Assembly (NCBI GenBank): GCA_003284445.1
Contig: QBVH01000010.1
Span: 1 to 50,511 of the forward strand
From: Prochlorococcus sp. AG-311-D23
GTDB taxonomy: Bacteria > Cyanobacteriota > Cyanobacteriia > PCC-6307 > Cyanobiaceae
DNA length: 50,511 nucleotides
Reading direction: 5' to 3'
Made by a program: the position numbers and the translations under genes. Each line of letters opens with the position of its first letter. Position 1 is the first letter of the stretch. This document shows, in pieces, positions 4,589 to 24,412 of the stretch. The notes under the pieces were generated by a model that worked only from the letters and a program-made list of their open reading frames with translations, did no database searches and was not told the DNA's origin.

Positions 4589-4840
4589 TGAAAAATAAAT
4601 AAAATCAGATGCAAATTTAACCACTCCCAATCAGTTACAGAGACCGTAAAGACCGATAGGGGTAATTGCCTTTCGGTATACTTCAATAAAAAAAAATAAT
4701 GATAATAATAAGTTTGCCTATATAAAAAATTCTAATCAATGCCAAATACAAATTAACTATACCTATTCAAAATAGATATTAAGTAATTATTCCTACACGG
4801 CTGATAGTGATTTGTTCTTATATTTTTTGAACTTCTCAGG

Positions 4841-4876
4841 ACAACCTTCTTTTTATACTGAGCTTTAGAAGGTTGT
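4841..4876 (+). other. hairpin inside repeat copy 1
   Basis: ACAACCTTCT and AGAAGGTTGT form a perfect 10-bp stem with a 16-nt loop, followed by TTCTTTG. It could be a weak terminator or the 5' fold of an RNA. The same hairpin is present in repeat copy 2. Confidence 0.6.
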
Positions 4877-4924
4877 TTCTTTGAATAAAAACGTCAGTGC
4901 TCCTCCCCAGAAGCCAATTAATTG

Positions 4925-4984
4925 ATGACCACAACAACTAATTGCCTGACGTACATTATCCTAAAATCTCCTTTTCATCAATAG
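4925..4984 (+). CDS. candidate 19-residue peptide ORF within repeat (copy 1)
   Basis: An ATG opens 19 codons reading MTTTTNCLTYIILKSPFHQ. I see no clear Shine-Dalgarno sequence. The copy in the second repeat (15698-15757) is identical, so coding constraint cannot be judged from this window. Listed because it sits just before the candidate sRNA and could be a leader peptide. Confidence 0.2.
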   Translation: MTTTTNCLTYIILKSPFHQ

Positions 4985-5078
4985 TTCTGTAGGACCGTAC
5001 GTATTTGGCAGGGAAACCGTAGAAACTTAAATCTTTTTTATTTAGACATTTAAAAAGGGCCCTAGGGACCCTTTTTCT
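4985..5078 (+). ncRNA. candidate sRNA ending at a strong terminator (repeat copy 1)
   Basis: The segment has no long ORF and includes CAGGGAAACCGTAGAAACTT, then a terminator-like fold at about 5053-5077 (AAAAAGGG ... CCCTTTTT enclosing CCCTAGGG). The repeated GAAAC-type words followed by a terminator recall the cyanobacterial Yfr2-family RNAs, but the sequence does not match a family I can name with confidence. The 5' end is not defined. Confidence 0.4.
5053..5077 (+). terminator. intrinsic terminator in repeat copy 1
   Basis: AAAAAGGG pairs with CCCTTTTT, with an inner CCC/GGG pairing, and ends in a T run. The A/T flanks make it potentially bidirectional. Confidence 0.75.
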
Positions 5079-5110
5079 TTACCGATTCTTTGGAAGCTTC
5101 TGGATTTGGC

Positions 5111-5146
5111 AGCCTGGGGCCAAGTGTCTAGTTGTAAGGCTTTTTT
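5111..5146 (+). terminator. second terminator-like hairpin in repeat copy 1
   Basis: AGCCT and AGGCT pair across a 20-odd-nt loop and are followed directly by T6. The stem is short, so efficiency may be modest. Confidence 0.45.
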
Positions 5147-5252
5147 ACTCCGTTAGGGCACCTAAACGATGCAGTGGAGTTTCGACTGAATTGACGCACC
5201 TAAATCATTGATCCTTGTCGCATCAGACGAATAGCCTACTTATTCTTTGAGA

Positions 5253-5420
5253 ATGTTGGAGCAGGAACCAGAATTCAGTTCGCTTCTCTTAAATACTCAG
5301 GTGGAGTGTCGACCATTAATGGTGCCTCTTAACTCAACAAACGTATCTTTGCTCTATTCGCACCTCAACGCAATCAGCCTTAATGCCCATTGCTTTTCCA
5401 CTACACCTGATCAAAAATAG
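5253..5420 (+). CDS. candidate 55-residue ORF within repeat (copy 1)
   Basis: An ATG opens 55 codons (MLEQEPEFSSLLLNTQVECR, then PLMVPLNSTNVSLLYSHLNAI and a polar tail) ending at TAG just before the repeat boundary. It resembles no family I know, and its GC content is slightly above its surroundings. The copy at 16026-16193 is identical. It may be a real small protein or a chance frame within a structured RNA region. Confidence 0.3.
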   Translation: MLEQEPEFSSLLLNTQVECRPLMVPLNSTNVSLLYSHLNAISLNAHCFSTTPDQK

Positions 5421-5464
5421 TAAGTTTGGGGTCTAAAACTTCTATCTCAAATCAAACCATCAAT

Positions 5465-5809
5465 ATGTCGAGAGAACAAACAAGTAAACAAGATCAAATA
5501 AGCATTTTCGGTGAAATAGCTAAAGGGTGTAGAACTGATCATCAAAAAATTGAATTTTTCGATTCATCTAAGGAAGCATTTTTCACAGATTCAATTGAAT
5601 CAACAAGCTCGGTTAATGAAGATATCCCTAAAGACTTAGACGACGGGTTTTACGTATACGCAAATATGAAAAAACTTAGTGACACGGAGCTTGAAGAGTT
5701 AAAAAGTCTTTCATGGAAAGAATACCCAGAAAACTTTAAGATATTTTTATTCGATTTTTGCATCTTAAATGGTGATGCATATTCAAAATATTTCCCCAAT
5801 TCAAAGTAG
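5465..5809 (+). CDS. hypothetical acidic protein, 114 aa
   Basis: A soluble, acidic protein (DSSKEAFFTDSIESTSSVNEDIPKDLDDGFYVYANMKKLSDTE...) with an aromatic-rich C-terminal part (NFKIFLFDFCILNGDAYSKYF). The frame is open from 5426 inside the repeat, but the ATG at 5465 lies 29 bp after the repeat end, exactly as the ATG of the 16237 gene lies 28 bp after repeat copy 2. This supports 5465 as the true start. No family recognised. Confidence 0.6.
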   Translation: MSREQTSKQDQISIFGEIAKGCRTDHQKIEFFDSSKEAFFTDSIESTSSVNEDIPKDLDDGFYVYANMKKLSDTELEELKSLSWKEYPENFKIFLFDFCILNGDAYSKYFPNSK

Positions 5810-5934
5810 TTTTAGCAAAGAATATTTAAAGACATCCGATAATATATTTATTGCATTCAGTCCACAAATATGATGCGTTATTGCAAGCAAGGTGGAAGCT
5901 TTTAAATTGAAGAAATAACTTTATTTCTCACCTA

Positions 5935-6201
5935 ATGCTTGAAACAACTGTATGTACATTTTATGTGAATGTACCTTACGATGAATGGGTGAAAAAGTTT
6001 GACAACGATGAGGCACCAGCTAGATCAGCCAAAGGTATAAAGGTGATTTTCAGAGGTGTCAGCAAAGACAATCCTGAAAAAGAGATCGTTGTAGTTCAAG
6101 CTTTAGAGGGTGTCTTAGGGAAACATATACAAGAGAACATTGAAATATTAAAAAAAAATGGTGCAGTCATGAGTACTGCAGAACCTAGTCTCTGGTCTTG
6201 A
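5935..6201 (+). CDS. DUF3764-like small protein, 88 aa
   Basis: MLETTVCTFYVNVPYDEWVKKFDNDEAPARSAKGIKVIFRGVSKDNPEKEIVVVQALEG... shares its layout (a beta strand, DEWxxxFD, a charged turn, an IxxxFRG strand, IVVxQ) with the proteins at 28368-28679 and 43219-43515. This is the DUF3764 pattern, a small alpha-beta (ferredoxin-like or ABM-like) fold found in marine picocyanobacteria. Function unknown. Three divergent copies in one 50-kb window is notable. Confidence 0.7.
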   Translation: MLETTVCTFYVNVPYDEWVKKFDNDEAPARSAKGIKVIFRGVSKDNPEKEIVVVQALEGVLGKHIQENIEILKKNGAVMSTAEPSLWS

Positions 6202-6268
6202 GGATCCACATTCCTTAGGTATAAATAAAGAATCAAGTCAAAAGATTAGTCTCAATTAAATCTGTACA

Positions 6269-6538
6269 ATGATTAGAAATCTGTTTTTCTTAATTCTCGG
6301 AGCATTTAGCGGTCTCTGGTTTATATGGCCTCAAATCATTACGACCAAAGGTTGGGAATGCACGAAAGATGTGATTGCATCTTCTAATGAAGATTTAACA
6401 GATATTGAATCATTCGTTGAATCGTTGCCAAACAGAATAAAATTAGGTTTGGCTGTTTCTCCTAAAACATTGCTAAAGAGAGAGAACCTTACTCGTATCG
6501 AGAAGCTCAGAATTGTTGGAGATGCTTGCTTTAGATAA
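6269..6538 (+). CDS. small exported or anchored protein, 89 aa
   Basis: MIRNLFFLILGAFSGLWFIW at the start is a signal anchor or uncleaved signal. The rest (TTKGWECTKDVIASSNED... LRIVGDACFR) is soluble with two cysteines that could pair. No family recognised. It is transcribed toward the convergent PTOX gene. Confidence 0.6.
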   Translation: MIRNLFFLILGAFSGLWFIWPQIITTKGWECTKDVIASSNEDLTDIESFVESLPNRIKLGLAVSPKTLLKRENLTRIEKLRIVGDACFR

Positions 6539-6590
6539 TTTAGAAAGCAAAAGGAAAAATTATCATTATTATCAACAAAAAGTTGACGTC

Positions 6591-7094
6591 TTAACTTATT
6601 AAAGCAATTGCTTCTTTTAATTCGTTCGCGTGATTGATCTCATCCTGAGCAATTTCACGTATCCTCTGATCGCTTGGATTAACGGTTAGATATTTTGCAT
6701 ATGTTTCATACGCATGCTCTTCAATTTTAATATTGATATCGTATGCATTTGATGGCGATAGTAAGTAATAAAAAACCATTACCCAGTAATAGAAGAGCAC
6801 TAAATGCCTGGCAAGAAATCGATCAACCCAATATCTATTGCCGCTTCGTGATTCCATCTCTTCTAAATGCTCCGTCTCATTGATTGCTTGGTAAAAATGA
6901 GCCTTCATTAGCTTGTTGCTTAAAGGAGTCTTTAGGCCAAGCGACTCTTGTAAATGCAAAACTGATAAGAATGCAAAATAAGGTGCTCTAGCAATTACCT
7001 CAAGAACCCAAAAACGTTGAATCGGTCTACCTTCGTAGATCCGATCAAGAATACTTACGCTGAAATCTAAAACAAATGAATTAAAACCTTTCAT
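6591..7094 (-). CDS. ptox: plastoquinol terminal oxidase / alternative oxidase family (PTOX-like)
   Basis: A di-iron carboxylate oxidase of the AOX/PTOX family, which oxidises plastoquinol and reduces O2 to water at the thylakoid membrane and relieves over-reduction. All ligand motifs are visible: LEVIAR (Glu32), NETEH (Glu73, His76), EEHAYETY (Glu125/126) and DEINH (Glu152, His155). At 167 aa it is shorter than plant PTOX because it lacks a transit peptide, as expected for cyanobacteria. The second iron-ligand motif reads NETEHLEEM where AOX usually has NERMHL, so this is a divergent member. It sits inside the segment bounded by the direct repeats and converges with the 6269 gene. Confidence 0.88.
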   Translation of the reverse strand: MKGFNSFVLDFSVSILDRIYEGRPIQRFWVLEVIARAPYFAFLSVLHLQESLGLKTPLSNKLMKAHFYQAINETEHLEEMESRSGNRYWVDRFLARHLVLFYYWVMVFYYLLSPSNAYDINIKIEEHAYETYAKYLTVNPSDQRIREIAQDEINHANELKEAIALIS

Positions 7095-7212
7095 ACTTCC
7101 TTAGCTAACTATTTAAGTGTAAATACTCAGGAAAAGAATATGAGTTATAACTTATTTATTTTACTATCGATAGCAACTGGAGCTGAATATGGAAGTAGGC
7201 CGAAGACTAAAT

Positions 7213-7389
7213 CTATCTTGCTCGAACAGGTTGGTAAGCAGGAATCATCTTTCCTCCTCCGAAATCGTCATCATCGTCTGGAAGCGCTCTTGAGATTAGT
7301 TCTACAAGAATTAGAGCAGCCATAGGGTAGAAACACCATAAAACAGCTTTCCAGATGGGAAATGAATCAACTAGCTGAAGCTCAGACAT
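7213..7389 (-). CDS. Asp-run/GGGM one-helix microprotein, 58 aa
   Basis: An ATG on the minus strand opens MSELQLVDSFPIWKAVLWCF and continues through one transmembrane helix to ALPDDDDDFGGGKMIPAYQPVRAR. The run of Asp followed by GGG and Met then a basic tail is shared with the genes at 9819-9995 and 16641-16775, which supports the frame. A 61-codon plus-strand frame over the same DNA is its shadow. Likely a thylakoid or plasma membrane peptide; function unknown. Confidence 0.65.
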   Translation of the reverse strand: MSELQLVDSFPIWKAVLWCFYPMAALILVELISRALPDDDDDFGGGKMIPAYQPVRAR

Positions 7390-7510
7390 TTATCAGAAAA
7401 TTGTTTGCACAAACCTAACTGATCTAAAAATATTTAGTGTTACGGTTAGCACGAAGTGAATGCTTATCTAATCGAAACTTGTGTAAAAAAATTACTTCAA
7501 GTCGTCTAAG

Positions 7511-7519
7511 TTTTCCACA
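7511..7519 (+). promoter_or_regulatory. DnaA-box-like nonamer TTTTCCACA
   Basis: TTTTCCACA matches the cyanobacterial DnaA-box consensus. An inverted equivalent (TGTGGAAAA, 24413-24421) sits at the matching distance beside the other copy of the dispersed RNA element. A single 9-mer is weak evidence; it is listed because of the conserved position. Confidence 0.3.
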
Positions 7520-7563
7520 GCTTAAGAGTCACTAAATAAATCCAAGATATAAATAAAAAGCAA

Positions 7564-7813
7564 TTCCAATAAAAAAGACCCTAGGTATGGTGTCCTACGG
7601 GCCTGGGTGATGGGGATCTTATTTTTAACTGTTTTTCAACCAAATTGCAACCCCTACCATATCTGGTGTTAGAAAGATTAAAAAAACAGAAAAAAAGGCC
7701 CATATCTGGAATTATCAGCTTGCGTAATATGTACACAGCGAGTAGTATTTTCGAATTACTGGGTGATGGGGATCTCTCAGTAGCTTCTCCCTCAAATTTG
7801 AGGGTTTTTTTAT
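7564..7813 (-). ncRNA. dispersed two-terminator RNA element, copy 1
   Basis: Read on the minus strand, the element holds: a hairpin of CCCTC...GAGGG, the motif GATCCCCATCACCCAG (7761-7776), about 140 nt of variable sequence, the same motif again (7603-7618), then GGCCCGTAGG / CCTAGGGTC folding into a hairpin followed by T6 (ends about 7567). The plus strand reads the complement and ends at the CCCTCAAATTTGAGGG hairpin with T7 (7790-7813). The same layout is found in inverse orientation at 24122-24369. The 53-nt terminal part is identical; the middle differs. This suggests one or two overlapping regulatory RNAs. ORFs of 68 and 83 codons across it are probably spurious. Confidence 0.6.
7790..7813 (+). 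terminator. intrinsic terminator of dispersed element, copy 1
   Basis: CCCTCAAATTTGAGGG is a perfect palindromic hairpin followed by T7 on the plus strand. Confidence 0.8.
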
Positions 7814-7905
7814 GCCATGAATTTCTGCACATAATTTCTATGATGGATTAAGGCAAAATGAGTGAAAAACTGCTCTGATCCTTATTTTTTTCCCAAATCG
7901 AGAAG

Positions 7906-8118
7906 ATGGAACAAGTAACTGATGCAATTGGTAATCCCACAGCACTCTTAATAGAGAGAATTTTTTGGTTGGGGTTAGGTGCATTTTTAGGACTGGCAAT
8001 AATTACTTCTTTACTGAAAGGATTAAAAGAAGGAAAAAACAAAACGACAGCAGTTTCACCTGATCAATTAGAAAATCTTGCAAAAAAAGCGATCCAACAA
8101 AACAGTGATAGCAATTGA
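7906..8118 (+). CDS. small membrane protein, 70 aa
   Basis: The polar N-terminus (MEQVTDAIGNPTALLIER) is followed by one helix (IFWLGLGAFLGLAIITSLL) and a basic, Gln-rich coiled tail (KGLKEGKNKTTAVSPDQLENLAKKAIQQN). This anchor-plus-tail design fits a membrane-tethered scaffolding or inner-membrane subunit. No family recognised. The minus-strand frame over the same DNA is a shadow. Confidence 0.6.
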   Translation: MEQVTDAIGNPTALLIERIFWLGLGAFLGLAIITSLLKGLKEGKNKTTAVSPDQLENLAKKAIQQNSDSN

Positions 8119-8245
8119 TATTGGTTATCAGATATTTTTATAGCCACAAACAAATTTACTTATGGTCGTTGGGGCGAGAACCGTACAATCAGCTACCACT
8201 GATTAGATGATGAGCATATATGCTTAATTCATATTCACAAAAACA

Positions 8246-8326
8246 ATGAAATTAGTTCCTTACATATTCATGGCTGTTGCTATCTTCTCAGAAGTTTCAA
8301 CAATTGCTACGACTCCTATTATCTAA
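8246..8326 (+). CDS. candidate 26-residue hydrophobic peptide
   Basis: MKLVPYIFMAVAIFSEVSTI ATTPII. One hydrophobic helix with a Glu in the middle, vaguely like the first helix of small multidrug resistance proteins, but far too short to call. ATG start and no clear ribosome-binding site. Confidence 0.25.
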   Translation: MKLVPYIFMAVAIFSEVSTIATTPII

Positions 8327-8408
8327 CTGAATCTCATTAATTGAGTATTCAGACCTAACGCATTCGGGTGAATATCGACGTTAGATTATATATAACTGAT
8401 TTCTATTC

Positions 8409-8669
8409 ATGCTCAAAAAGATATTTAGGGCTGCTAGTTTTTTAGCTTTGTCTGTTTTTTTAGCTTCAACAGCTATTTTTTCAGGAATAAACCCTTTAGA
8501 GGCTGCCCAAATGGGTTCTGATATGAATGAAGATAACTCTATGGGTATTGTGATCGAAGAATCGAGTGATGCCTTAGATGGTTCGAAAACTAGTGCTGCT
8601 CCAGACCTTGGAGATGACCAAGCATTTCCTTTTATTCCAGGTTTTGGTAAAAATTCCGGTAAAGACTGA
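8409..8669 (+). CDS. secreted acidic FPF-tail peptide, 86 aa
   Basis: A clear Sec-type signal peptide (MLKKIFRAASFLALSVFLAS ... GINPLEAA, cleavage probably after LEAA near residue 33) precedes an acidic, low-complexity mature region. It ends in LGDDQAFPFIPGFGKNSGKD. The C-terminal GDxQxFPFxPGxG matches the peptide at 16905-17150 and, more loosely, that at 20277-20537. The mature protein is about 50 residues. No known family; it would act in the periplasm or lumen, or outside the cell. Confidence 0.65.
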   Translation: MLKKIFRAASFLALSVFLASTAIFSGINPLEAAQMGSDMNEDNSMGIVIEESSDALDGSKTSAAPDLGDDQAFPFIPGFGKNSGKD

Positions 8670-8770
8670 TTATCTTTTTGTTGAAGGTAATGATTGACAA
8701 TAAATTACTAATTTTTTAGAAAGCTATAAAAAATCCACAGACATAAGTGGTAATTAGCTAAACCATTTTC

Positions 8771-8875
8771 ATGGAAAAATGGGAATCAAAAATAATCATT
8801 CTTGTTATGTTTGCAGTGCTTGCAATTGGGTCAATCGCACCATTGATCAGGATGATCAGTGATCGTATTTCTTAA
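8771..8875 (+). CDS. one-helix microprotein, 34 aa
   Basis: MEKWESKIIILVMFAVLAIG then SIAPLIRMISDRIS: a single transmembrane helix with charged ends, as in small photosystem or cytochrome subunits, but I cannot match it to a named one. Clean ATG and stop. Confidence 0.5.
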   Translation: MEKWESKIIILVMFAVLAIGSIAPLIRMISDRIS

Positions 8876-9008
8876 GATTGAATTTGATTGGACAAGCTAA
8901 GATCATTGGAGGAATTATTACGAACATGAATGCTTTAAGCATTTTTGGCTGATTAATTTTTATTTTGCTAAAACTGGGAAAATGCTTAAATGATCGAATG
9001 GAACAAAA

Positions 9009-9034
9009 AAATCTAGAGAAAAATCTCTAGATTT
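9009..9034 (-). terminator. intrinsic terminator downstream of Hli gene
   Basis: An 11-bp perfect stem (AAATCTAGAGA / TCTCTAGATTT) with a 4-nt loop, followed on the minus strand by a T run. It lies 28 bp after the stop of the 9062-9358 Hli gene. Confidence 0.8.
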
Positions 9035-9061
9035 ATATGAAGATTGATTTGTTAAAGCTAT

Positions 9062-9358
9062 TTAAAATATTCCAGGAATAATTTGTCCAGTAGTGATATA
9101 AGCGCCTAGTAAAGCAATAATTCCGATCATTGCCCAACGGCCATTCGTCTTTTCCGCTTCTTCTGGATAGCTGGAATAGTTTTCAACTAATTGAGTTTGT
9201 ACTTGGGTAGCAAACATGTTTTGCTTGCCATATTCAGTAATGATCTGGTTAGAAGCAGAACTGTAAGCAGGGATTCCTGTTGGATCAACAGATTGTCCTT
9301 CTGATTGATTATCAGTTGGATCTATTGATTGATCAGAAACTGGGTTACTAGAAGTCAT
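9062..9358 (-). CDS. hli: high-light-inducible protein with long N-terminus (Hli/HLIP), 98 aa
   Basis: The C-terminal 40 residues (EEAEKTNGRWAMIGIIALLG then AYITTGQIIPGIF) are a classic Hli chlorophyll-binding helix: ExxNGRxAM and the TGQIIPG tail found in Prochlorococcus and cyanophage Hli proteins. The first ~55 residues are hydrophilic, rich in Ser, Asp, Gln and Thr, and probably stromal. Hli proteins bind chlorophyll and carotenoid, and protect photosystem II under light or nutrient stress. Its 3' neighbour on the same strand is a terminator, and a second Hli gene lies 8 bp upstream. Confidence 0.92.
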   Translation of the reverse strand: MTSSNPVSDQSIDPTDNQSEGQSVDPTGIPAYSSASNQIITEYGKQNMFATQVQTQLVENYSSYPEEAEKTNGRWAMIGIIALLGAYITTGQIIPGIF

Positions 9359-9366
9359 TTAAAAAC

Positions 9367-9474
9367 CTAAAAAATGCCTGGAATAATTTGACCTGTTGTT
9401 GCGTAAGCACCGAAAGCAGCAATAAAGCCGATCATTGCCATCCAACCATTAAACTTTTCTGCTTCTGGAGTCAC
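9367..9474 (-). CDS. hli: short high-light-inducible protein (Hli), 35 aa
   Basis: Read from a GTG start, the 35-residue protein is TPEAEKFNGWMAMIGFIAAF followed by GAYATTGQIIPGIF, with the chlorophyll-binding core ExxNGxxAM and the TTGQIIPGIF tail. The Arg of the usual NGR is replaced by Trp (NGWMAM). The frame stays open for 46 more codons upstream, but that extension has no Hli character. The GTG start gives the standard Hli length. It is 8 bp upstream of the longer Hli gene, so both are probably one transcript ending at the 9009 terminator. Confidence 0.88.
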   Translation of the reverse strand: MTPEAEKFNGWMAMIGFIAAFGAYATTGQIIPGIF

Positions 9475-9639
9475 GAAATTAAACTCAAATAATGAGCACG
9501 AATGTAAAGGAAAAGTAAAGGAATGTAAAGGGGTCACCCGTACACAGCAAAAGTTATCAGGGGTATTAGCTGAAGCAATATTTTTAATCCACGGTCTAAA
9601 TAACAATTCCACTAACTTTGTTGAAATTAATTCAACTTG

Positions 9640-9816
9640 ATGGATTTAATACCAGGTGTAGTTCTTTTCTTTGGAGCCATTGGAACTGTGGCTTTACTTG
9701 GTTGGGATACTTTCCAAAATCGTAAGCCAATTACGAAAGCTGAAATGCAGCAGTCTCGTGGAACTAGAGCAGCAAAGCCACAACAGAAAAGAAAAGGATT
9801 ATTTAACAGAGGATAA
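9640..9816 (+). CDS. one-helix microprotein with basic tail, 58 aa
   Basis: MDLIPGVVLFFGAIGTVALL (one helix) is followed by GWDTFQNRKPITKAEMQQSR and a strongly basic tail (AAKPQQKRKGLFNRG). The tail would face the negatively charged cytoplasmic side or RNA/DNA. Two bases separate it from the next gene, so the pair forms an operon. A minus-strand frame over it is a shadow. Confidence 0.6.
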   Translation: MDLIPGVVLFFGAIGTVALLGWDTFQNRKPITKAEMQQSRGTRAAKPQQKRKGLFNRG

Positions 9817-9818
9817 TC

Positions 9819-9995
9819 ATGGGTGAAATTCAAACATACGCTTCAAACTCAGGAGATTTTAGTTTCCTTTTCGTTTTAATTATTGTTGGGACTTATCTTC
9901 TTTATGAGGTTGGTAGAGCAATATTGGACAACAACGATGATGATGACATGGATGGAGGAATGACGATGCGTGTAGCAGATGGAGCACAAGCCTGA
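9819..9995 (+). CDS. Asp-run/GGM one-helix microprotein, 58 aa
   Basis: MGEIQTYASNSGDFSFLFVL and one helix lead to EVGRAILDNNDDDDMDGGMTMRVADGAQA. The Asp run followed by GGM and Arg-Val places it with the 7213-7389 and 16641-16775 genes. It begins 2 bp after the stop of the 9640 gene. The Asp cluster could bind Ca, Mg or Mn (inference from composition only). Confidence 0.65.
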   Translation: MGEIQTYASNSGDFSFLFVLIIVGTYLLYEVGRAILDNNDDDDMDGGMTMRVADGAQA

Positions 9996-10103
9996 ATTGA
10001 CTACCAAAATAATATGTATTTATTGACTACATAAACATGTCGTCTCTAAAAAGGTTTCAGGGTGAATTGAATATATAATTAGTCATCTATTTAATTAAAA
10101 ATT

Positions 10104-10238
10104 TTGAGCGAAGAAAATATCAAAAGAAAAATAGATGCTTTATTAAAAGAACTTCAGGAGAAAACAGGAGTTTCGGATGAAGAGATGGACGAATTTAAAA
10201 AAATAATGGAACTAGCAGATTTTTCACAAGACCAATAA
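10104..10238 (+). CDS. small acidic soluble protein, 44 aa (TTG start)
   Basis: From a TTG: SEENIKRKIDALLKELQEKT GVSDEEMDEFKKIMELADFSQDQ. Amphipathic helices and no membrane segment. The start is not ATG and the ribosome-binding site is weak, so confidence is moderate. Confidence 0.4.
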   Translation: MSEENIKRKIDALLKELQEKTGVSDEEMDEFKKIMELADFSQDQ

Positions 10239-10270
10239 TAATTTAGGTATAAGTCGTGATGAATGAAGGT

Positions 10271-10423
10271 TTAGCGAGATGCGAGTTTTGACCAAATAAG
10301 CAGTACCAACACGTTAAGCAATGCATATCCAACAGCAATTTGAAGTTGATAAAAATATCCCACAATCGAAGAGGATCCCACAATGATCAAACTAGTAATA
10401 AAAATATCTCTTGAAAAATTCAC
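10271..10423 (-). CDS. two-helix small membrane protein, 50 aa (GTG start)
   Basis: The frame from GTG gives a hydrophobic protein, VNFSRDIFITSLIIVGSSSI then VGYFYQLQIAVGYALLNVLVLLIWSKLASR, with two likely helices. A short AGG precedes the GTG. No family recognised. Confidence 0.42.
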   Translation of the reverse strand: MNFSRDIFITSLIIVGSSSIVGYFYQLQIAVGYALLNVLVLLIWSKLASR

Positions 10424-10466
10424 CTAAAAAAATCAAGCACTATAAATATTCAGATTGAAAATGAAA

Positions 10467-10625
10467 TCATGAAAGTCTTATTTGATTTTCAATCAAATAA
10501 GCATTGCTTGTGCAGGCCTCATTGCCTGTAACTTGAGAAACAGCAATAACGAGAAGGCTTAGAGAACCAACTGCTAAAGAAATTGTTCTAATAGCACTGG
10601 CTTTCTTAGAGATTTTCTTGCTCAT
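10467..10625 (-). CDS. small membrane protein, 52 aa
   Basis: From the ATG, MSKKISKKASAIRTISLAVG then SLSLLVIAVSQVTGNEACTSNAYLIENQIRLS: a basic N-terminus, one hydrophobic helix, and a short polar tail with one Cys. This could be a signal peptide with a ~25-residue mature peptide. The frame extends 20 codons upstream but the ATG is more convincing. It lies 151 bp beyond the stop of arsR on the same strand. Confidence 0.5.
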   Translation of the reverse strand: MSKKISKKASAIRTISLAVGSLSLLVIAVSQVTGNEACTSNAYLIENQIRLS

Positions 10626-10775
10626 ATCAAAAAATCTTGATGTAATAAGAATATGATAACTATCCAAGCATAAAAGAGTATCCATTGATACCTAGTAGAA
10701 ATAATTACCTAAAAATTATTAGAACAATTCTGAATAGAGCTAAATCAATTGGAAACTAGATTTAAATTAATTGCT

Positions 10776-11105
10776 TTATTTACAAACTTGCGATGGTTGT
10801 TGGGAGCTTTCTTTTAACAGTTCAATCCAATCTTGCAAAGAATTTAATGAGTCAATATTCAATTGGTAATAAACCCATCTACCAGTTTGCCTATCGGTAA
10901 TCAAACCTGCGTCTTTTAAAACTTTTAAATGAAAAGATATTTTCGATTGCGCCAATCCAATTTCATTAATCAAATCACAAACACATCGCTCTCCTCCTGA
11001 AAGAGACTCAATGATTTGCAATCGCAATGGATCAGATAAAGCTTTTAGCAATTTCCTGGCCATTGCATTTTCAAGAACTACTTCGCTCTTTATCGCTGTG
11101 GCCAT
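10776..11105 (-). CDS. arsR: ArsR-family metalloregulatory repressor
   Basis: A winged-helix dimeric repressor that leaves DNA when it binds arsenite or a related thiol-seeking ion. The family box ERCVCDL (Cys41, Cys43) is the ArsR metal-binding site at helix alpha-3. The DNA-recognition region LAQSKISFHLKVLKDAGLIT and the wing DRQTGRWVYYQLN follow. At 109 aa the length is typical. The frame starts GTG-ATG; I use the ATG. It is divergent from the GAPDH gene, and the palindrome at 11177-11192 lies between the two, so it probably controls both itself and the GAPDH-arsJ operon. Confidence 0.92.
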   Translation of the reverse strand: MATAIKSEVVLENAMARKLLKALSDPLRLQIIESLSGGERCVCDLINEIGLAQSKISFHLKVLKDAGLITDRQTGRWVYYQLNIDSLNSLQDWIELLKESSQQPSQVCK

Positions 11106-11176
11106 CACAGAAGGAAAAATATAATCAAATGATAAAACAAACTTCAGAAAAGGCTTGCATCGACAAACCTCTATAC

Positions 11177-11192
11177 ATCAATATAAATTGAT
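11177..11192. promoter_or_regulatory. ArsR-type operator palindrome
   Basis: ATCAAT-ATAA-ATTGAT is a perfect inverted repeat with 6-bp arms, matching the AT-rich ATCAA(N)xTTGAT operators of the ArsR/SmtB family. It lies 52 bp upstream of the GAPDH ATG and 72 bp upstream of arsR, so one dimer could block both promoters. Assignment is by motif and position. Confidence 0.72.
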
Positions 11193-11243
11193 ATGAGGAA
11201 TCCAGTCCTTTATTGATTCACTCAATTCACTCAATTACAGGTT

Positions 11244-12269
11244 ATGCGAATCGGTATTAATGGTTTCGGTCGAATAGGACGACTTGTTCTAAGAGCGCTC
11301 TGGGGTAGAGAAAATATCGAGATTACACATATCAACGATCCATTGGGTGATGCAAAGGGAGCTGCGCATTTACTTGAATTTGATTCAGTACATGGTCGTT
11401 GGAACAAAGCAATAAGCAACGACCAAAACAACCTGAGTATTGAAAGTCAACCAATATCTTTTTCTCAAGAAAGTGATTTCACAAAAGTGCCATGGAAGGA
11501 AAAAGGAATAGAACTAATTCTCGAATGTTCAGGAAAATTCAAAACCCCTCAAACATTAAATCCATATTTCGATACTCTTGGAATGAAAAGAGTTGTCGTT
11601 GCATGTCCAGTTAAAGGTGAAATACAGGGAGAGGATGCTCTAAATATCGTCTACGGTATTAATCATAATTTATATGAGCGCAATAAACATCGCTTAGTAA
11701 CAGCAGCATCCTGCACAACTAATTGCTTAGCTCCAGTCGTGAAGGTCGTTAATCAAAACTTTGGTATTAAGCATGGAAGCATCACTACACTCCATGACCT
11801 AACAAATACTCAGGTAATCGTTGATTCATTTAAGCCAGATTTAAGAAGAGCCAGAAGCGGATCACAAAGCTTAATTCCAACAACGACAGGATCAGCAAAA
11901 GCGATAGGGATGATATTCCCTGAATTACAAGCAAAATTAAATGGTCATGCAGTTCGAGTTCCTCTCCTCAATGGATCTTTAACTGATGCTGTATTTGAAT
12001 TAGAGAAAGAGGTCACGCAAGAAGAAGTCAATCATGTGTTCAAAAAAGCTTCCGAAGAAGAACTAAAAGGAATACTTGGTTACGAAGAAAAACCACTTGT
12101 CTCAATTGATTATGTCAATGACTCAAGGAGTTCAATTATTGATGCGCCCTCAACCATGGTGATCAACAAAACTCAACTGAAAGTCTATATTTGGTATGAC
12201 AATGAATGGGGGTATAGCTGTCGAATGGCTGATCTCGTATCACATGTAATAAAGCTAGAAAAAGAATAA
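11244..12269 (+). CDS. gap: glyceraldehyde-3-phosphate dehydrogenase of the ArsJ arsenate-resistance pathway
   Basis: A full-length GAPDH of 341 aa: the Rossmann NAD motif [15 protein letters not shown] at residues 5-19, the catalytic AASCTTNC with Cys157, the active-site His184 region, and the C-terminal WYDNEWGYS. In the arsR-gap-arsJ arrangement known from bacteria this enzyme uses arsenate in place of phosphate to form 1-arseno-3-phosphoglycerate, which ArsJ exports. It is separated from arsJ by 10 bp and sits behind the ArsR palindrome. By sequence it is an ordinary GAPDH, so the arsenate role comes from context and could be additional to glycolytic use. Confidence 0.93.
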
Positions 12270-12279
12270 GAATATAAAC

Positions 12280-13554
12280 ATGCGATTAACGGCATTGCAA
12301 CAATATGGAATAGTAACGACCAACTATTGGGCATTCACACTGACTGATGGTGCTCTAAGAATGCTAGTGATTTTTCACTTTCATAGCCTTGGATATACAA
12401 CATTAGAAATTGCATTCTTATTCCTTTTTTATGAGTTCTTTGGCGTCATCACTAATCTCTATGGAGGTTGGATAGGAGCAAGATATGGATTACGTCTAAC
12501 ACTTTGGGTAGGAACTCTTTTACAAATCGGCGCCTTATTGATGTTGATACCCGATTCAAGTGGTTGGTCGAAACTTTTGAGTGTCATTTATATCATGGTT
12601 GCTCAAGCGATTAGTGGCATAGCAAAAGATCTCAATAAGATGAGTGCTAAAAGTGCCATCAAAACTGTCGTTCCAGACTCCTCAGAAGAGGATGGTGGAA
12701 ATAATCAATTATTTAAATGGGTAGCCATCTTAACTGGTTCAAAAAATGCACTCAAAGGAGTTGGCTTCTTTCTTGGTGGACTTTTGCTTACAAGTTTTGG
12801 ATTTAATAAAGCAGTTGAATTAATGGCAATCGGATTAAGTGTTTCGTTTTTATTGACATTGATTTTGCCTGGAGATATTGGAAAGATGAAAAGCAAACCC
12901 ATATTTAAAGACTTATTCTCTAAATCTCAAGGGATCAACGTCCTATCTGTTGCACGTTTTTTTCTCTTTGGAGCAAGAGATGTATGGTTCGTCGTAGCAC
13001 TTCCTGTTTTTCTTGAAACGTATCTAAATTGGAATTTTTCTGAGATTGGAGCGTTCCTAGGCTTATGGGTTATTGGTTATGGCTTTATCCAAGCTATTGC
13101 ACCGTCTTTAAGAAATTTATGGGGAAATAAAACAAGCCCAGGAGTTTCTTCTGTTCAATTTTGGAGTGCTGTCTTAACTGCGATACCTGCGCTAATAGCA
13201 ATAGCACTATGGCGACAAAGCAATCCAGAAATAGCAATTACAGCTGGATTGATATTATTTGGGTTCATTTTTGCAATGAACTCATCAATACATTCATATA
13301 TGGTTCTTGCTTATACGGACAAGGAAAACGTGAGTCTAAATGTAGGCTTCTATTACATGGCAAATGCGGCAGGAAGACTGATTGGTACGCTCTTATCTGG
13401 TGTCCTATTTATGCTTGGGAGCAATGCCTCTATAGGAATGCAACTATGTTTATGGTGTTCAAGCCTATTTGTATTTATCTCATTGTTGACTAGTTTACGA
13501 CTACCTCCAGTATCAAATACAAAAGCTATTAAAAATCCTAAGACCTTCAATTAA
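12280..13554 (+). CDS. arsJ: ArsJ organoarsenical efflux permease (MFS)
   Basis: A 424-residue, 12-helix major facilitator protein. LTDGALRMLVIFHFHSLGYT near the start and the loop GIAKDLNKMSAKSAIKTVVP around residues 111-130 are hallmarks of ArsJ. A classic MFS loop (GGWIGARYGLR) follows the second helix. ArsJ exports 1-arseno-3-phosphoglycerate, which decays outside the cell to arsenate. The gene is 10 bp after gap, so transcription is probably shared and ArsR-controlled. An internal plus-strand frame and the minus-strand frames here are shadows. Confidence 0.93.
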   Translation: MRLTALQQYGIVTTNYWAFTLTDGALRMLVIFHFHSLGYTTLEIAFLFLFYEFFGVITNLYGGWIGARYGLRLTLWVGTLLQIGALLMLIPDSSGWSKLLSVIYIMVAQAISGIAKDLNKMSAKSAIKTVVPDSSEEDGGNNQLFKWVAILTGSKNALKGVGFFLGGLLLTSFGFNKAVELMAIGLSVSFLLTLILPGDIGKMKSKPIFKDLFSKSQGINVLSVARFFLFGARDVWFVVALPVFLETYLNWNFSEIGAFLGLWVIGYGFIQAIAPSLRNLWGNKTSPGVSSVQFWSAVLTAIPALIAIALWRQSNPEIAITAGLILFGFIFAMNSSIHSYMVLAYTDKENVSLNVGFYYMANAAGRLIGTLLSGVLFMLGSNASIGMQLCLWCSSLFVFISLLTSLRLPPVSNTKAIKNPKTFN

Positions 13555-13583
13555 AAAAAATTAAATATAGAGGGAAAGAAAGA

Positions 13584-13781
13584 CTACTGAACCTCTGATT
13601 CTCGGTCATATTCAAGTCCAACTTCATTCATCCAAGCTGCTTTCGTTTTACAGTTTTTACCATGCTCGGCTAGATGTAATCCCTCAATCGAAATAAATAA
13701 AACTAGTAGTGAAACTGGAATCCACCAGAGGGGTGATCCAACTATTTCCTTCCAATTATTCATTGATTCTTTTTTTTTCAT
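13584..13781 (-). CDS. small membrane protein, 65 aa
   Basis: A Lys-rich start (MKKKESMNNWKE), one helix (PLWWIPVSLLVLFISIEGL), then a polar tail HLAEHGKNCKTKAAWMNEVGLEYDRES with His and Cys. ATG start; a second Met six residues later is an alternative. It lies between arsJ (convergent) and the pstS terminator. No family recognised. Confidence 0.55.
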   Translation of the reverse strand: MKKKESMNNWKEIVGSPLWWIPVSLLVLFISIEGLHLAEHGKNCKTKAAWMNEVGLEYDRESEVQ

Positions 13782-13840
13782 ATTAAAGAGCTTTTTTAAG
13801 CTTAAGTTAAGAAGTTACTAGCAAGCAAAAAAGACAATTA

Positions 13841-13866
13841 AAAAAGGAGGCTATTACCTCCTTTTT
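13841..13866 (-). terminator. bidirectional intrinsic terminator after pstS
   Basis: AAAAAGGAGG and CCTCCTTTTT form a 10-bp stem with a 6-nt loop, with T runs on both strands. It sits 19 bp after the pstS stop. Confidence 0.88.
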
Positions 13867-13884
13867 AATTTATAAGGAATTAAT

Positions 13885-14856
13885 TTACTTACCAATACGC
13901 TTTACAGCAGCGCGAGACTTGGAAAGAATATCACCTTCAAGAGGTACAAATCCAAGAGAAGGAGCCTTAGCCTGGGCTTTATCACTTAGTAGGTAGTTAA
14001 GTGAATCTTTAATGGCATCAGTGTTTCTACCATTACCAGTTTCGTAAGCAAGAATCCATGTAAGGGTTGCGATTGGGTATGCACCTTTGGCCTTGGGGTT
14101 AGGATTTTTTCCGGCTAGATTTTTATCTAGTTGTATTCCATTAAGAGCAATCGCACCAGCCTCAGTAGTTGGCTGTAAGAACTCTCCTGATAAATTTTGG
14201 AGAGCGGCTGCTTTGATTTCACCTCTTATATATGACTGGTTTACATAACCAATTGCACCAGGAGTGTTTCGAATAACGCCAGCGACACCAGCATTACCTT
14301 TACCACCAACACCAGCAGGCCAGGCGACAGATTTACCTGTACCTAGAGTCCAGGTCTTTGAGAAAGCTTGCATGGAATTTGTAAAAGCCTTCGTAGTACC
14401 GGAGCCATCAGAACGATGCGCCCAAGTTAGTTTTCCATCAGGGCAACCAACCTCTTTCCAGTTTGTAATTTTACCCATAGCAACACGAACTGCTTGCTCT
14501 TGAGTAAGTTTAAGATCGCAATCGTAGTTATAACCAAAGGCAATAGTGCCACCAACCATTGGGATTTGAACTAATCCACGCGTCACTCTTGCAATATCTG
14601 TTGCTTTCATCGGATCATCTGACGCACCAAAATTAACGGTTTCATCAATGAAAGCTTTGCGGCCAGAACCTGAACCAACAGCCTGATAGTTAACACGAGG
14701 TCCACGCTCTTTAGCTAAGTCAGAAAACCATCGAGTGTAGATTTTAGCGGGAAAAGAGGCTCCAGCTCCGCTGAGTCGAGCACCCGCAAGAGCACTTCCT
14801 CCTGAGCCAAGAATAATTAAAAAGGAAAGAACAATACTCTTCTTAGCAAAGCTCAT
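13885..14856 (-). CDS. pstS: phosphate ABC transporter periplasmic phosphate-binding protein
   Basis: A periplasmic binding protein that captures inorganic phosphate for the PstCAB channel. The signal peptide is MSFAKKSIVLSFLIILGSGGSALAG with cleavage near ALA. The mature protein shows the phosphate-ligand motifs GAGASFP, GSGSGRKA and RSDGSGTTKAF. Its codon use is richer in GC than its neighbours, consistent with high expression. The frame extends 11 codons upstream to another ATG (14889), but the MSFAKK start gives a normal signal peptide. It stands alone without pstCAB and is followed by a strong terminator. I saw no clear Pho box upstream. Confidence 0.95.
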   Translation of the reverse strand: MSFAKKSIVLSFLIILGSGGSALAGARLSGAGASFPAKIYTRWFSDLAKERGPRVNYQAVGSGSGRKAFIDETVNFGASDDPMKATDIARVTRGLVQIPMVGGTIAFGYNYDCDLKLTQEQAVRVAMGKITNWKEVGCPDGKLTWAHRSDGSGTTKAFTNSMQAFSKTWTLGTGKSVAWPAGVGGKGNAGVAGVIRNTPGAIGYVNQSYIRGEIKAAALQNLSGEFLQPTTEAGAIALNGIQLDKNLAGKNPNPKAKGAYPIATLTWILAYETGNGRNTDAIKDSLNYLLSDKAQAKAPSLGFVPLEGDILSKSRAAVKRIGK

Positions 14857-15049
14857 CAAAGGTCTGCGACGTAAAAGCAATGGAAGCATAGGACGCGAAG
14901 GTACTGATATTGATATGGAGCTTGCGGCAAAAGCTAATTCAAAATAAAATTATATTTTGATGGAGCGAAGTGGTAGATTCACGAGCCATAATAGGATTGA
15001 TGCTTGTTTGAAAGCCAACCAATAGAACAATCAAGCATTTAATAAGAAG

Positions 15050-15190
15050 TTGAAAAACAAAGTAAAATATCTTCTAATAATCCTAGTCTTAATAATCGGC
15101 ACATCTATATCTATTAGGCAATACAAAAACACATATCCAGATCCTAGTGAGAGAAAAGATTTATCTGTTAAAGGAATCTTGCTAGATTAA
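15050..15190 (+). CDS. small membrane-anchored protein, 46 aa (TTG start)
   Basis: KNKVKYLLIILVLIIGTSIS then IRQYKNTYPDPSERKDLSVKGILLD: one N-terminal helix after a basic start and a polar tail. It would read from TTG, preceded by AAGAAG as a ribosome-binding site. No family recognised. Confidence 0.45.
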   Translation: MKNKVKYLLIILVLIIGTSISIRQYKNTYPDPSERKDLSVKGILLD

Positions 15191-15292
15191 AATGTTATGT
15201 TTACAAAAATATAAAACATAAATAAGGTTTAAGGGTATTAATTTAGACTAAAATAAATAAAGAGTGAAGGCTTGAAGAAAAGAGGAAACTAA

Positions 15293-15523
15293 ATGAGATG
15301 GCCACCGAATGCAGCTTGGACCTCAGCAGTAAAAAGAGAAGGTTATCGACATTTTGAAGTTAAAAGCTATGGAGGCAAAAAAGATGAAAGGTGGGTAGAA
15401 CTATTTCCTGTTAACAACAACGAAATTCTTATAAAAGTTCCATGGTCGGAATTAAAAACATACTCAAAGTGGACGAGTGGATGGCTTCAGTTGCCAAAAG
15501 ATGAAGACTGCGATGGCAACTAA
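15293..15523 (+). CDS. TIGR02450 family Trp-rich protein, 76 aa
   Basis: MRWPPNAAWTSAVKREGYRHFEVKSYGGKKDERWVELFPV then IKVPWSELKTYSKWTSGWLQLP. The spaced tryptophans (WP..AWTS, RWVELF, PWSELK...W.SGWLQLP) identify the TIGR02450 family of small tryptophan-rich proteins found in marine bacteria and cyanobacteria. Soluble; function unknown. The stop lies 27 bp before repeat copy 2. Confidence 0.75.
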   Translation: MRWPPNAAWTSAVKREGYRHFEVKSYGGKKDERWVELFPVNNNEILIKVPWSELKTYSKWTSGWLQLPKDEDCDGN

Positions 15524-15697
15524 TCTTTAGAGAAAATAAAAAACCGATATTTTAAGTAATTATTCCTACACGGCTGATAGTGATTTGTTCTTATATTTTT
15601 TGAACTTCTCAGGACAACCTTCTTTTTATACTGAGCTTTAGAAGGTTGTTTCTTTGAATAAAAACGTCAGTGCTCCTCCCCAGAAGCCAATTAATTG

Positions 15698-15757
15698 ATG
15701 ACCACAACAACTAATTGCCTGACGTACATTATCCTAAAATCTCCTTTTCATCAATAG
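15698..15757 (+). CDS. candidate 19-residue peptide ORF within repeat (copy 2)
   Basis: Identical to the ORF at 4925-4984 (MTTTTNCLTYIILKSPFHQ). Same caveats apply: no visible ribosome-binding site and no independent test of coding. Confidence 0.2.
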   Translation: MTTTTNCLTYIILKSPFHQ

Positions 15758-16025
15758 TTCTGTAGGACCGTACGTATTTGGCAGGGAAACCGTAGAAACT
15801 TAAATCTTTTTTATTTAGACATTTAAAAAGGGCCCTAGGGACCCTTTTTCTTTACCGATTCTTTGGAAGCTTCTGGATTTGGCAGCCTGGGGCCAAGTGT
15901 CTAGTTGTAAGGCTTTTTTACTCCGTTAGGGCACCTAAACGATGCAGTGGAGTTTCGACTGAATTGACGCACCTAAATCATTGATCCTTGTCGCATCAGA
16001 CGAATAGCCTACTTATTCTTTGAGA

Positions 16026-16193
16026 ATGTTGGAGCAGGAACCAGAATTCAGTTCGCTTCTCTTAAATACTCAGGTGGAGTGTCGACCATTAATGGTGCCT
16101 CTTAACTCAACAAACGTATCTTTGCTCTATTCGCACCTCAACGCAATCAGCCTTAATGCCCATTGCTTTTCCACTACACCTGATCAAAAATAG
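16026..16193 (+). CDS. candidate 55-residue ORF within repeat (copy 2)
   Basis: Identical to the frame at 5253-5420. It ends 15 bp before the repeat boundary. No family recognised; possibly non-coding. Confidence 0.3.
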   Translation: MLEQEPEFSSLLLNTQVECRPLMVPLNSTNVSLLYSHLNAISLNAHCFSTTPDQK

Positions 16194-16236
16194 TAAGTTT
16201 GGGGTCTAGCTAAGATCTAATCAATAAATCAAAAAC

Positions 16237-16431
16237 ATGAATCAGTCTCCAGAGAAAGAGAAGGGAATGAGCTTTATTAAAAAAGCTGGTAAATGGGCTC
16301 CATTAGTTGGAGGAGCATGGATTGTTCTAAATATTGTTGTTCCATTAGCTCTACTTCGTATTCCTGCAGTCCAAAAATACTTAGTAGTACTTGAAGACAA
16401 ACTCCCTTTTGATATTCCAGGTATTGGTTAG
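16237..16431 (+). CDS. one-helix protein ending LPFDIPGIG, 64 aa
   Basis: MNQSPEKEKGMSFIKKAGKW then a hydrophobic helix (APLVGGAWIVLNIVVPLALL) and the tail KYLVVLEDKLPFDIPGIG. The tail LPFDIPGIG is close to the FPFxPGxG ends of the secreted peptides at 8409 and 16905, but here it follows a membrane helix with a basic N-terminus instead of a cleaved signal. First gene of a tight run of small membrane proteins: the next ATG is immediately after its stop. Confidence 0.62.
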   Translation: MNQSPEKEKGMSFIKKAGKWAPLVGGAWIVLNIVVPLALLRIPAVQKYLVVLEDKLPFDIPGIG

Positions 16432-22759: not shown

Positions 22760-23278
22760 TTATTTAGCAGCTTCAGGTGCTTTTCTGGCTTTACGTGCAC
22801 GCCGAGCAGGTCTACCAGCACTTGGTTTCACAACCGAAGAAACCTCTACTTTAGCTTTGACTGCAGCCTTTTTAGCGACCGACTTTTTAGCTACTGCTTT
22901 CTTTGCTGTAGCCTTTTTAGCAACTGTTTTTTTTGCAGAAGCTTTTTTTACTGTTGAGGTTTTAGCTGCAGTAGCTTTTGGAGCAGCTCCTTTACGTGTG
23001 CGATGAGAAAGAATTAAAGCCCATTCATCAGCACTAATATTTGCTGGCTTATTTCCATGAACCTCAGAAACTTTAGCTGCTTTTTCGATATCTTTAATTA
23101 GGTTTTTCCAAGAAGCTGCGTAACGCTTATCAGACTGAGATTTTGCTCCGCTTTCAACAAGGGTTTCAACGACTTGAGAAGCAGTGACCTTTTTACGACG
23201 TCTGTTAAAGATCTCTTTTTGCAAGGTAGCAATCAAGGCATCACCTTTAGCACTAACTTTGATTGATAACTGAGACAT
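22760..23278 (-). CDS. histone H1-like nucleoid protein with AT-hook tail (paralogue A), 172 aa
   Basis: The N-terminal ~95 residues (MSQLSIKVSAKGDALIATLQ ... NKPANISADEWALILSHRTR) are near-identical to those of 33682-34269. The rest is a low-complexity Ala-Lys tail (KKASAKKTVAKKATAKK and similar) like bacterial histone H1-like proteins, ending AGRPARRARKARKAP, where GRP flanked by Arg fits an AT-hook. I infer an abundant DNA- or RNA-binding chromatin-like protein. The tail repeats differ between the paralogues, so the tail evolves quickly. It is followed by a tRNA-like fold. Confidence 0.7.
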   Translation of the reverse strand: MSQLSIKVSAKGDALIATLQKEIFNRRRKKVTASQVVETLVESGAKSQSDKRYAASWKNLIKDIEKAAKVSEVHGNKPANISADEWALILSHRTRKGAAPKATAAKTSTVKKASAKKTVAKKATAKKAVAKKSVAKKAAVKAKVEVSSVVKPSAGRPARRARKARKAPEAAK

Positions 23279-24121: not shown

Positions 24122-24369
24122 AACAAAAAAGCCCTCATCTCATGAGGGCAAATATTACTGGCTGAAGGATCCCCATCACCCAGCTTCCAAAAAATAATAA
24201 TCAAATTAATTAGATTAAGCAACAATAAAGCACCATATATTTTATCTCAGGATTAAACGAACACCATCTGTAGGGGGGGGGTTGATTTATTAAAGAAATA
24301 GGGTTAGAAATAGTATCCCCATCACCCAGGCCCGTAGGACACCATACCTAGGGTCTTTTTTATTGGAAA
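24122..24369 (+). ncRNA. dispersed two-terminator RNA element, copy 2
   Basis: In plus-strand order: GCCCTCATCTCATGAGGGC hairpin, GGATCCCCATCACCCAG, a variable ~130-nt segment with a G9 run, ATCCCCATCACCCAG, then GGCCCGTAGG..CCTAGGGTC and T6 (terminator at 24336-24362). This is the inverse-orientation copy of 7564-7813. The opposite strand reads the complement (GGGTGATGGGGATC) and ends in the GCCCTCATGAGATGAGGGC hairpin with T6. No convincing ORF. A regulatory RNA or a sense/antisense RNA pair is likely. Confidence 0.6.
24336..24362 (+). terminator. intrinsic terminator of dispersed element, copy 2
   Basis: GGCCCGTAGG folds with CCTAGGGTC (one bulge) and is followed by T6. Confidence 0.8.
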
Positions 24370-24412
24370 AGCTTTCATAGGCTGATTTGATTATCAATAA
24401 GGACATAGGAGT

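Follow-up and report, generated by a model that had tools for sequence, protein, structure and literature searches.

The two long direct repeats in the window (the whole 50,511-nt stretch of Prochlorococcus sp. AG-311-D23 analysed here) most likely each carry one gene copy of Yfr103, a non-coding RNA already described in Synechococcus and Prochlorococcus. We put the probability of the whole account, that of an old and fixed Yfr103 gene pair kept alike by gene conversion rather than the ends of a mobile segment, at roughly 85%. The observations behind it are the identity of the copies, their fixed sites, their likeness within genomes, the conserved RNA fold, and the agreement with published Yfr103 features. 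The features of the window are as follows:

4779–5435, no strand assigned: repeat copy A, 657/657 bases identical to 15552–16208
15552–16208, no strand assigned: repeat copy B, 657/657 bases identical to 4779–5435
5093–5412, minus strand: Yfr103-like RNA gene, copy A (family alignment, covarying structure, U-G pairs)
15866–16185, minus strand: Yfr103-like RNA gene, copy B, identical to copy A
5417–5422, minus strand: putative −10 element TACTAT, copy A (predicted from its place in the alignment)
16190–16195, minus strand: putative −10 element TACTAT, copy B (predicted as for copy A)
5052–5076, minus strand: putative terminator hairpin, copy A (it folds; similar hairpins follow the core in several relatives)
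15825–15849, minus strand: putative terminator hairpin, copy B (as for copy A)
4805–4955, strand unsettled: second conserved structured element, an sRNA candidate, copy A (low diversity, hairpins with paired changes)
15578–15728, no strand assigned: second conserved structured element, copy B, identical to copy A
5436–15551, no strand assigned: segment between the copies, with alternative oxidase, two Hli-like ORFs, arsR, gap, an arsJ-like MFS gene, a pstS-like gene and other small genes (Pfam, gene order)
5465–5809, plus strand: small gene divergent from RNA copy A (ORF; no Pfam match)
16237–16431, plus strand: small gene divergent from RNA copy B (ORF; no Pfam match)

The copies lie in direct orientation with a start-to-start distance of 10,773 bp, confirming the near-identical direct repeats of a preliminary description of this DNA. 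That description also gave a single T as the difference between them; a mismatch in a T run is indeed present, but it comprises two T's (GATATTAAG versus GATATTTTAAG) and lies at the left edge, outside the identical 657-bp block. Copy A ends 29 bp before the ATG at 5465 and copy B 28 bp before the ATG at 16237, as had been noted. The repeat was said to carry no transposase, and the sole ORF wholly inside it (57 a.a, at a 35-a.a cut-off) is not of transposase size; no inverted pair of at least 30 nt was found at the repeat ends. An IS element or transposon was thus rejected, since neither a transposase gene nor terminal inverted repeats of that length turned up. Rfam covariance models gave no match at the gathering score in the repeat, with three weak matches (up to E 5) over 4600–5600; a likeness to PhotoRC-I at 5006–5097 was rejected at 14.9 bits against a gathering score of 45. 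ARAGORN called neither tRNA nor tmRNA in the window, and phage records held no match to the repeat and its flanks, nor to the core from the genome we take to be CC9311.

Judged from its alignment, the conserved part of the repeat is a structured RNA of ~320 nt. The fold comprises 40 pairs, with 95.6% of alignment cells paired (27–47% when the structure is slid), and two-sided changes occur at 10 RNA pairs compared to 3.5 in shuffles (alignment A1, 19 of 25 rows, after removal of L073, which has an insertion, and of five second copies that were near-identical). The U-G pairs favour the minus strand. The RNA is 320 nt in the window and 291–322 nt in 24 of the 25 alignment rows, L073 being 379 nt; because we set these ends from conservation, with the published length already known to us, the agreement in length with Yfr103 is weak evidence. 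The available sections of PMC5069720 describe Yfr103 as a very abundant non-coding transcript of 290–328 nt with a strongly conserved secondary structure, an imperfect palindrome at −29 to −58, and seven paralogues in CC9605. The homologues named in those sections are from Synechococcus and from SS120, NATL1A, NATL2A, MIT9303 and MIT9313, with no high-light strain among them. The window RNA shares with Yfr103, as far as those sections describe it, the size class, the occurrence in Synechococcus and low-light Prochlorococcus, the presence of several copies, and the conserved structure, whereas the window unit extends to 657 bp and includes a second structured element; likeness of the copies within a genome does not figure in those sections.

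A search with the copy from the presumed CC9311 genome matched 56 of 60 chosen genomes, the four without a match being of high-light type. The genome that we take to be CC9605 (G245, contig of 2,510,659 bp) gave seven matches in this search and, in a further comparison, 11 pieces at 7 places. The conserved structure of the RNA family fits Yfr103 as described, and by that description the size, copy number and fold, with the occurrence in Synechococcus and low-light strains, together make two copies of the Yfr103 gene the most likely identity of the repeats. Novelty of the repeat core, as first supposed, is accordingly not supported; the suggestion of an RNA- or promoter-bearing duplication unit does gain support from the predicted structured RNA, with the promoter putative. 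Rfam models likewise gave no match at the gathering score at the RNA in four relatives. Certain short-word matches elsewhere were set aside: a degenerate 16-mer matched 41 stretches of viral contigs, which the RNA profile scored at 16.3 bits at best (157–226 for full copies in other genera and 41–50 in high-light genomes), consistent with chance, a 23-mer matched none of the viral contigs, and a contig from Sporomusaceae that shared a 20-mer had no match to the RNA profile.

The RNA is more widely distributed than printed for Yfr103. A profile search found a divergent homologue (41–50 bits) in all 17 high-light genomes, homologues that had escaped a BLAST search started from a Synechococcus copy. 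Some of these genomes are, we presume, MIT9301, MIT9312 and AS9601. The homologues share the gene order <- -> -> that is tabulated in PMC2518516 for Yfr17 of high-light Prochlorococcus, for which the strains listed include MIT9301, MIT9312 and AS9601. On gene order and strains, we hypothesize that the high-light homologue is Yfr17, in which case two separately named RNAs would become one family.

Each repeat would thus comprise one Yfr103 gene with its core promoter and terminator, probably with minus-strand transcription that diverges from the adjacent small gene. Consensus scans called neither a promoter nor a terminator at the proposed places. A GGCACGCC-like motif that may correspond to the published palindrome lies upstream of the RNA in some Synechococcus and other relatives; none was seen in the window.

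Beyond the putative terminator, a second sRNA-like element would belong to the unit in this genus, so that the repeat may yield a second structured RNA candidate. This element (~4805–4955) has low diversity at 4809–4898 among 17 genomes and forms hairpins with paired changes, making it a candidate RNA gene in this genus. It might instead belong to a longer precursor of Yfr103, or serve as a signal for processing, as it lies in the same 657-bp unit as the RNA, its outer stem on the minus strand is followed by a T run, and the shared block in G160, G104 and the presumed CC9311 genome extends beyond the RNA and ends shortly after a strong hairpin. The putative terminator between the RNA and the element, and diverged solo copies of the element in four of 18 genus genomes searched (G000, G002, G007, G031), argue against this, and we regard it as possible but the less probable reading.

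In pairs of alike copies, the shared block starts 16–49 bp before the RNA in 17 of 21 pairs (exceptions at −1, −80, −200 and +24; the 21 exclude the G114 tandem array and three unlike pairs) and ends 324–640 bp after the RNA start. RNA copies also occur in unrelated neighbourhoods in several genera. One could picture yfr103 as a dispersing unit, its RNA common to low-light, high-light (as Yfr17) and Synechococcus lineages, that has moved and been recopied, with copies homogenised across hundreds of kilobases, and that has gained a second RNA gene in the low-light genus; we consider this rather unlikely.

The preliminary description proposed that recombination between the repeats could excise or duplicate the segment, and the direct orientation of the copies would suit an 11-kb mobile or excisable segment bounded by them. 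However, the search for the 657-bp unit across the genus placed the pair at two shared locations in 20 of 41 genomes, with shared neighbour genes at both sites that extend to the divergent G036 and G038 (in G008, the contig carries only one side of copy A). The pair is therefore old and fixed at two sites ~11 kb apart, and gene gain and loss, including cases where the ars/pstS block is lost or inverted, falls within the segment. No recombinase was found among ten Pfam-tested proteins, nine of them from the segment. Pfam matched six of the ten, upholding most of the gene content first proposed, including alternative oxidase (PTOX-like), ArsR, GAPDH, MFS (ArsJ-like) and PBP-type (PstS-like) proteins; the two ORFs labelled Hli had no match at 1e-3, so that this label rests on appearance.

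The predicted junction lacking the segment, in which one repeat joins the left flank of copy A to that on the right of copy B, was found in two of 41 assemblies (G030, G009), but both are drafts in which segment genes sit on other contigs. Much of the segment in G030 is on contig C32, in which the match to the window ends 8 bp away from the repeat edge, with 13 bp of contig left; in G009, short pieces are on contigs C25 and C26. Contigs of G031, G033, G034 and G037 stop ~30–60 bp from the repeat edges, indicating that assemblers fail at the repeat, and a real deletion or excision is no more likely than a mis-join through a collapsed repeat. The repeat is thus a warning that draft genomes break or mis-join there. 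A mobile segment is, in our view, very unlikely; recombination between the copies seems to occur as copying and is not supported as excision.

Within genomes, the copies are markedly alike. The closest copy to each was its own partner in 17 of 19 two-copy genomes, the exceptions being G001 (32 differences) and G002 (17); the tree and comparisons exclude G008 copy A, which is truncated. In the 17 genomes of lower divergence, copies had a median of 3 differences within and 34–35.5 between genomes. Under random re-pairing in 17 of the 19 genomes (without G036 and G038), the observed sum of 93 compared to a mean of 560 and a minimum of 363, with 0 of 10,000 re-pairings reaching it. The closeness of partners points to concerted evolution, most simply through gene conversion, i.e., non-reciprocal homologous recombination; taken alone, the sequences would equally fit repeated duplication and replacement. 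Near-identical copies in most genomes might also suggest a recent duplication in each lineage, which the constancy of the flanking genes at the two sites in 20 genomes, including the divergent G036 and G038, renders highly improbable. That the second copy is an assembly artefact, as a 65-contig draft might invite one to suspect, can be dismissed, since six single-contig relatives (G002–G007) hold the same pair, several with edge differences.

Dispersed Synechococcus copies also appear to be often, but not always, alike within a genome. The presumed CC9311 genome has two copies that are separated by 759 kb and differ at one position in 472, as against 26–29 differences from either G160 copy. 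Four copies in the genome we take to be CC9902 are 99.2–99.7% alike, and three in G127 are 99.5–100% alike; in contrast, the divergence is ~20% across the alignable region among the paralogues of G253, of G071 and of G092, and 5% for one pair in G114, while G245 has RNA copies of several types. Literature searches on concerted evolution or gene conversion with bacterial small RNA, and on gene conversion and repeats in Prochlorococcus NATL2A, returned nothing on this RNA.

Ribosomal RNA operons are multi-copy and under concerted evolution, and are likewise abundant structural RNAs kept alike within a genome, whereas not all Synechococcus paralogues of the RNA here are homogenised. The duplicated sRNAs PrrF1/PrrF2 and Qrr1-4, named in PMC2518516, are similarly single sRNAs in several copies, but are target-pairing regulators, unlike Yfr103, which has no known target. 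That small genomes keep several alike copies points to a role for both dosage and precise sequence, much as with ribosomal RNA, and selection on the dose and sequence of this very abundant RNA probably also acts, with dosage the presumed reason for having two copies.

The two copies of the repeat in the window are identical over 657 bases, lie in direct orientation and are spaced 10,773 bp apart. The preliminary description of a near-identical direct pair of ~657 bp stands, apart from its single-T difference: the copies differ by two Ts in length at the left edge, outside the identical block. Elsewhere in the genome, the repeat has one partial match only (77 bp at 81%).

Repeat features in the window
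4779–5435: copy A, direct
~4805–4955: second element, RNA-like candidate, either strand
5093–5412: minus strand, Yfr103-like RNA gene (core)
5436–15551: segment between the copies
15552–16208: copy B, direct
15866–16185: minus strand, Yfr103-like RNA gene (core)

With the repeat as query, matches were found in 191 of 300 family genomes at E 1e-3 (copy numbers from this search, which scored two candidates per genome, are lower bounds). Among the matches listed, those in other genera cover mainly part 315–619 of the repeat, and the core is alignable across genera. RNAalifold folding of 19 sequences gave 40 pairs with 95.6% of cells paired, compared to 27–47% for slid structures, and both-side changes in 10 pairs (25 cells; 3.5 and 8.6 in shuffles), the slide and shuffle controls being biased in favour of a structure derived from the same alignment. 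For extra pair types the contrast is weaker (25 vs. 21.4, with 8 of 500 shuffles as high). U-G pairs, for example the one that 16 of the 19 sequences have in helix 9, would be A-C on the opposite strand, which suggests the minus strand for the RNA. Hairpins lie 3′ of the core in several relatives; scanning for promoters and terminators gave no prediction at the positions proposed for them around the core. Given that the neighbours of the RNA gene mostly differ between the genera compared, the gene has moved. Genome G114 (C1:2267300-2269800) carries three tandem copies, 450 bp apart and 99.8–100% alike, and the copy in an SS120-size genome has a tRNA gene ~160 bp away.

The RNA measures 291–322 nt in 24 of 25 aligned rows, with ends set by us, and occurs at seven places in G245, presumably strain CC9605. 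In its published account, Yfr103 is an RNA of 290–328 nt with an enigmatic function, with seven paralogues making up 55.2% of the mdRNA-seq reads of CC9605; its homologues occur in Synechococcus as well as SS120, NATL1A, NATL2A, MIT9303 and MIT9313 (PMC5069720). From these features we take the core to be, most likely, Yfr103. Our main reading, with a probability of about 0.85, is of a known RNA with newly seen behaviour: a yfr103 pair in concerted evolution, accompanied in this genus by a second RNA-like element and with a likely high-light relative. The homologues in high-light genomes weaken the distribution argument and lower this confidence slightly.

A search with a CC9311-size copy found matches in 56 of the 60 genomes chosen (1–9 each, some perhaps pieces), and the four without a match were all g18, of high-light type. 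The window core matched 25–32 bases of one short stretch, CAAGGATC[A/C]ATGATTTAGGTGCG, in 17/17 g18 genomes given. The window's genus and certain relatives have this stretch inside the RNA; in the high-light type it lies downstream of the RNA. Just upstream of the stretch, an RNA profile scored 40.7–49.6 bits over nearly the whole model in 17 of 18 high-light loci, representing all 17 genomes (maximum 1.7 bits in 240 shuffled sequences), so these genomes carry a divergent homologue.

High-light loci with a profile match
L246–L261 and L263 (e.g., L247:1296-1534): divergent Yfr103-like RNA

The remaining locus, L262 (G307:C11), carries CAAGGATCAATGATTTAGGTGCG and no adjacent match to the Yfr103 profile; this stretch may be an RNA submodule able to move. 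The window gene at 1052–1348, located 3.4 kb from copy A, has a relative that adjoins the RNA in all three high-light loci that were tested and is also near the MIT9313-size copy. Yfr17, for which lengths of 76, 285 and 450 nt are given, fits the high-light homologue in gene order and strains (PMC2518516), and on these two points the homologue is perhaps Yfr17.

Across 17 genomes, 4809–4898 varies as little as the RNA does, and a variable stretch separates the two. A solo copy of this second element matched 15 of 18 genus genomes, four with a solo copy, and one of 15 genomes in other genera (24 bases). Its stem ACAACCTTC/GAAGGTTGT reads CCACTCT/AGAGTGG in two of four solo copies, while each of the remaining two has a form with one side changed; its loop is conserved. 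A further stem, ACGTCAG/CTGACGT, not perfect everywhere, surrounds a hairpin and a C-rich stretch. From sequence, the element is a candidate RNA on either strand.

The closest copy was the partner in the same genome in 17 of 19 genomes, and most copies grouped by genome in a tree with 15 of 32 inner branches open. The exceptions, G001 (32 differences, one copy nearer G007) and G002 (17 differences), perhaps hold imported alleles. Leaving out these two and G036, whose 25 differences are located beyond the reference span, 45 of the 49 within-pair differences fell at the hand-cut row ends (first 22 and last 11 bases). In 7 of 10 pairs compared, the near-identical block starts 16–27 bp before the RNA (−1 in G104) and ends at +407 to +640, directly after a strong hairpin in the CC9311-size genome, G160 and G104 and ~60 bp past one in G097. 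Leaving aside the tandem array, a second comparison covered 14 pairs: in 11 the block began at −18 to −49, in the remaining three at −80, −200 and +24. Homogenisation is absent from the pairs in G071, G092 and G253, and one G114 pair is 5% different.

The search for the 657-bp unit across related genomes, proposed in the preliminary description, matched 32 of 41 genus genomes. Twenty of these (G000–G008, G015, G017–G020, G022–G024, G027, G036 and G038; one copy cut at a contig end in G008, two stretches in G002) have both copies with neighbours and order as in the window, mostly spaced ~10–12.6 kb (4.5 kb in G036, 7.7 kb in G008, 26 kb in G002).

Other arrangements of the repeat in the genus
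G011: two copies, different surroundings, one at contig end
G026: one copy, 56-bp fragment, contig rearranged
G016, G021, G025, G032: copy B alone, with a contig start or end within or at the segment
G040: copy B alone
G028: copy A only, contig end inside the repeat
G009, G030: single-repeat junction
G031, G033: partial match

No match was found in G010, G012–G014, G029, G034, G035, G037 and G039. Contigs end ~30–60 bp from the repeat edge three times each in G034 and G037, and twice each in G031 and G033. Among genomes without a match, neither outer flank was found in G010, G012, G013, G029 and G039, and G014 and G035 gave short flank matches only. The predicted junction lacking the segment was seen in G030 and G009 and in none of the other assemblies examined, and no genome examined joined the outer flanks directly without the repeat.

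Within the segment, the arsR-to-pstS block was not seen in G008, G026 and G030, and G036 keeps the pstS-like gene with no matches to the ars genes, oxidase or Hli-like ORFs. In G002 (L120), the block is inverted, the pstS-like gene first and then the ars genes, beyond ~7.4 kb of other DNA; G010 (L119) starts likewise, with the pstS-like gene inverted relative to the window after ~7.4 kb of other DNA.

The window holds two further repeat pairs. One, 105 nt and inverted (7557–7661 and 24271–24375, 82% alike), is perhaps another small RNA family; Rfam gave no match at gathering score, and what it listed at 7450–7850 was weak (up to E 1). The other, 288 nt and direct (22991–23278 and 33982–34269, 84%), may represent paralogous protein genes, since its first copy lies inside a basic, alanine- and lysine-rich ORF (22760–23278, minus strand).

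Further RNA in the window
46230–46288: minus strand, Glutamine-II riboswitch aptamer (50.1 bits)
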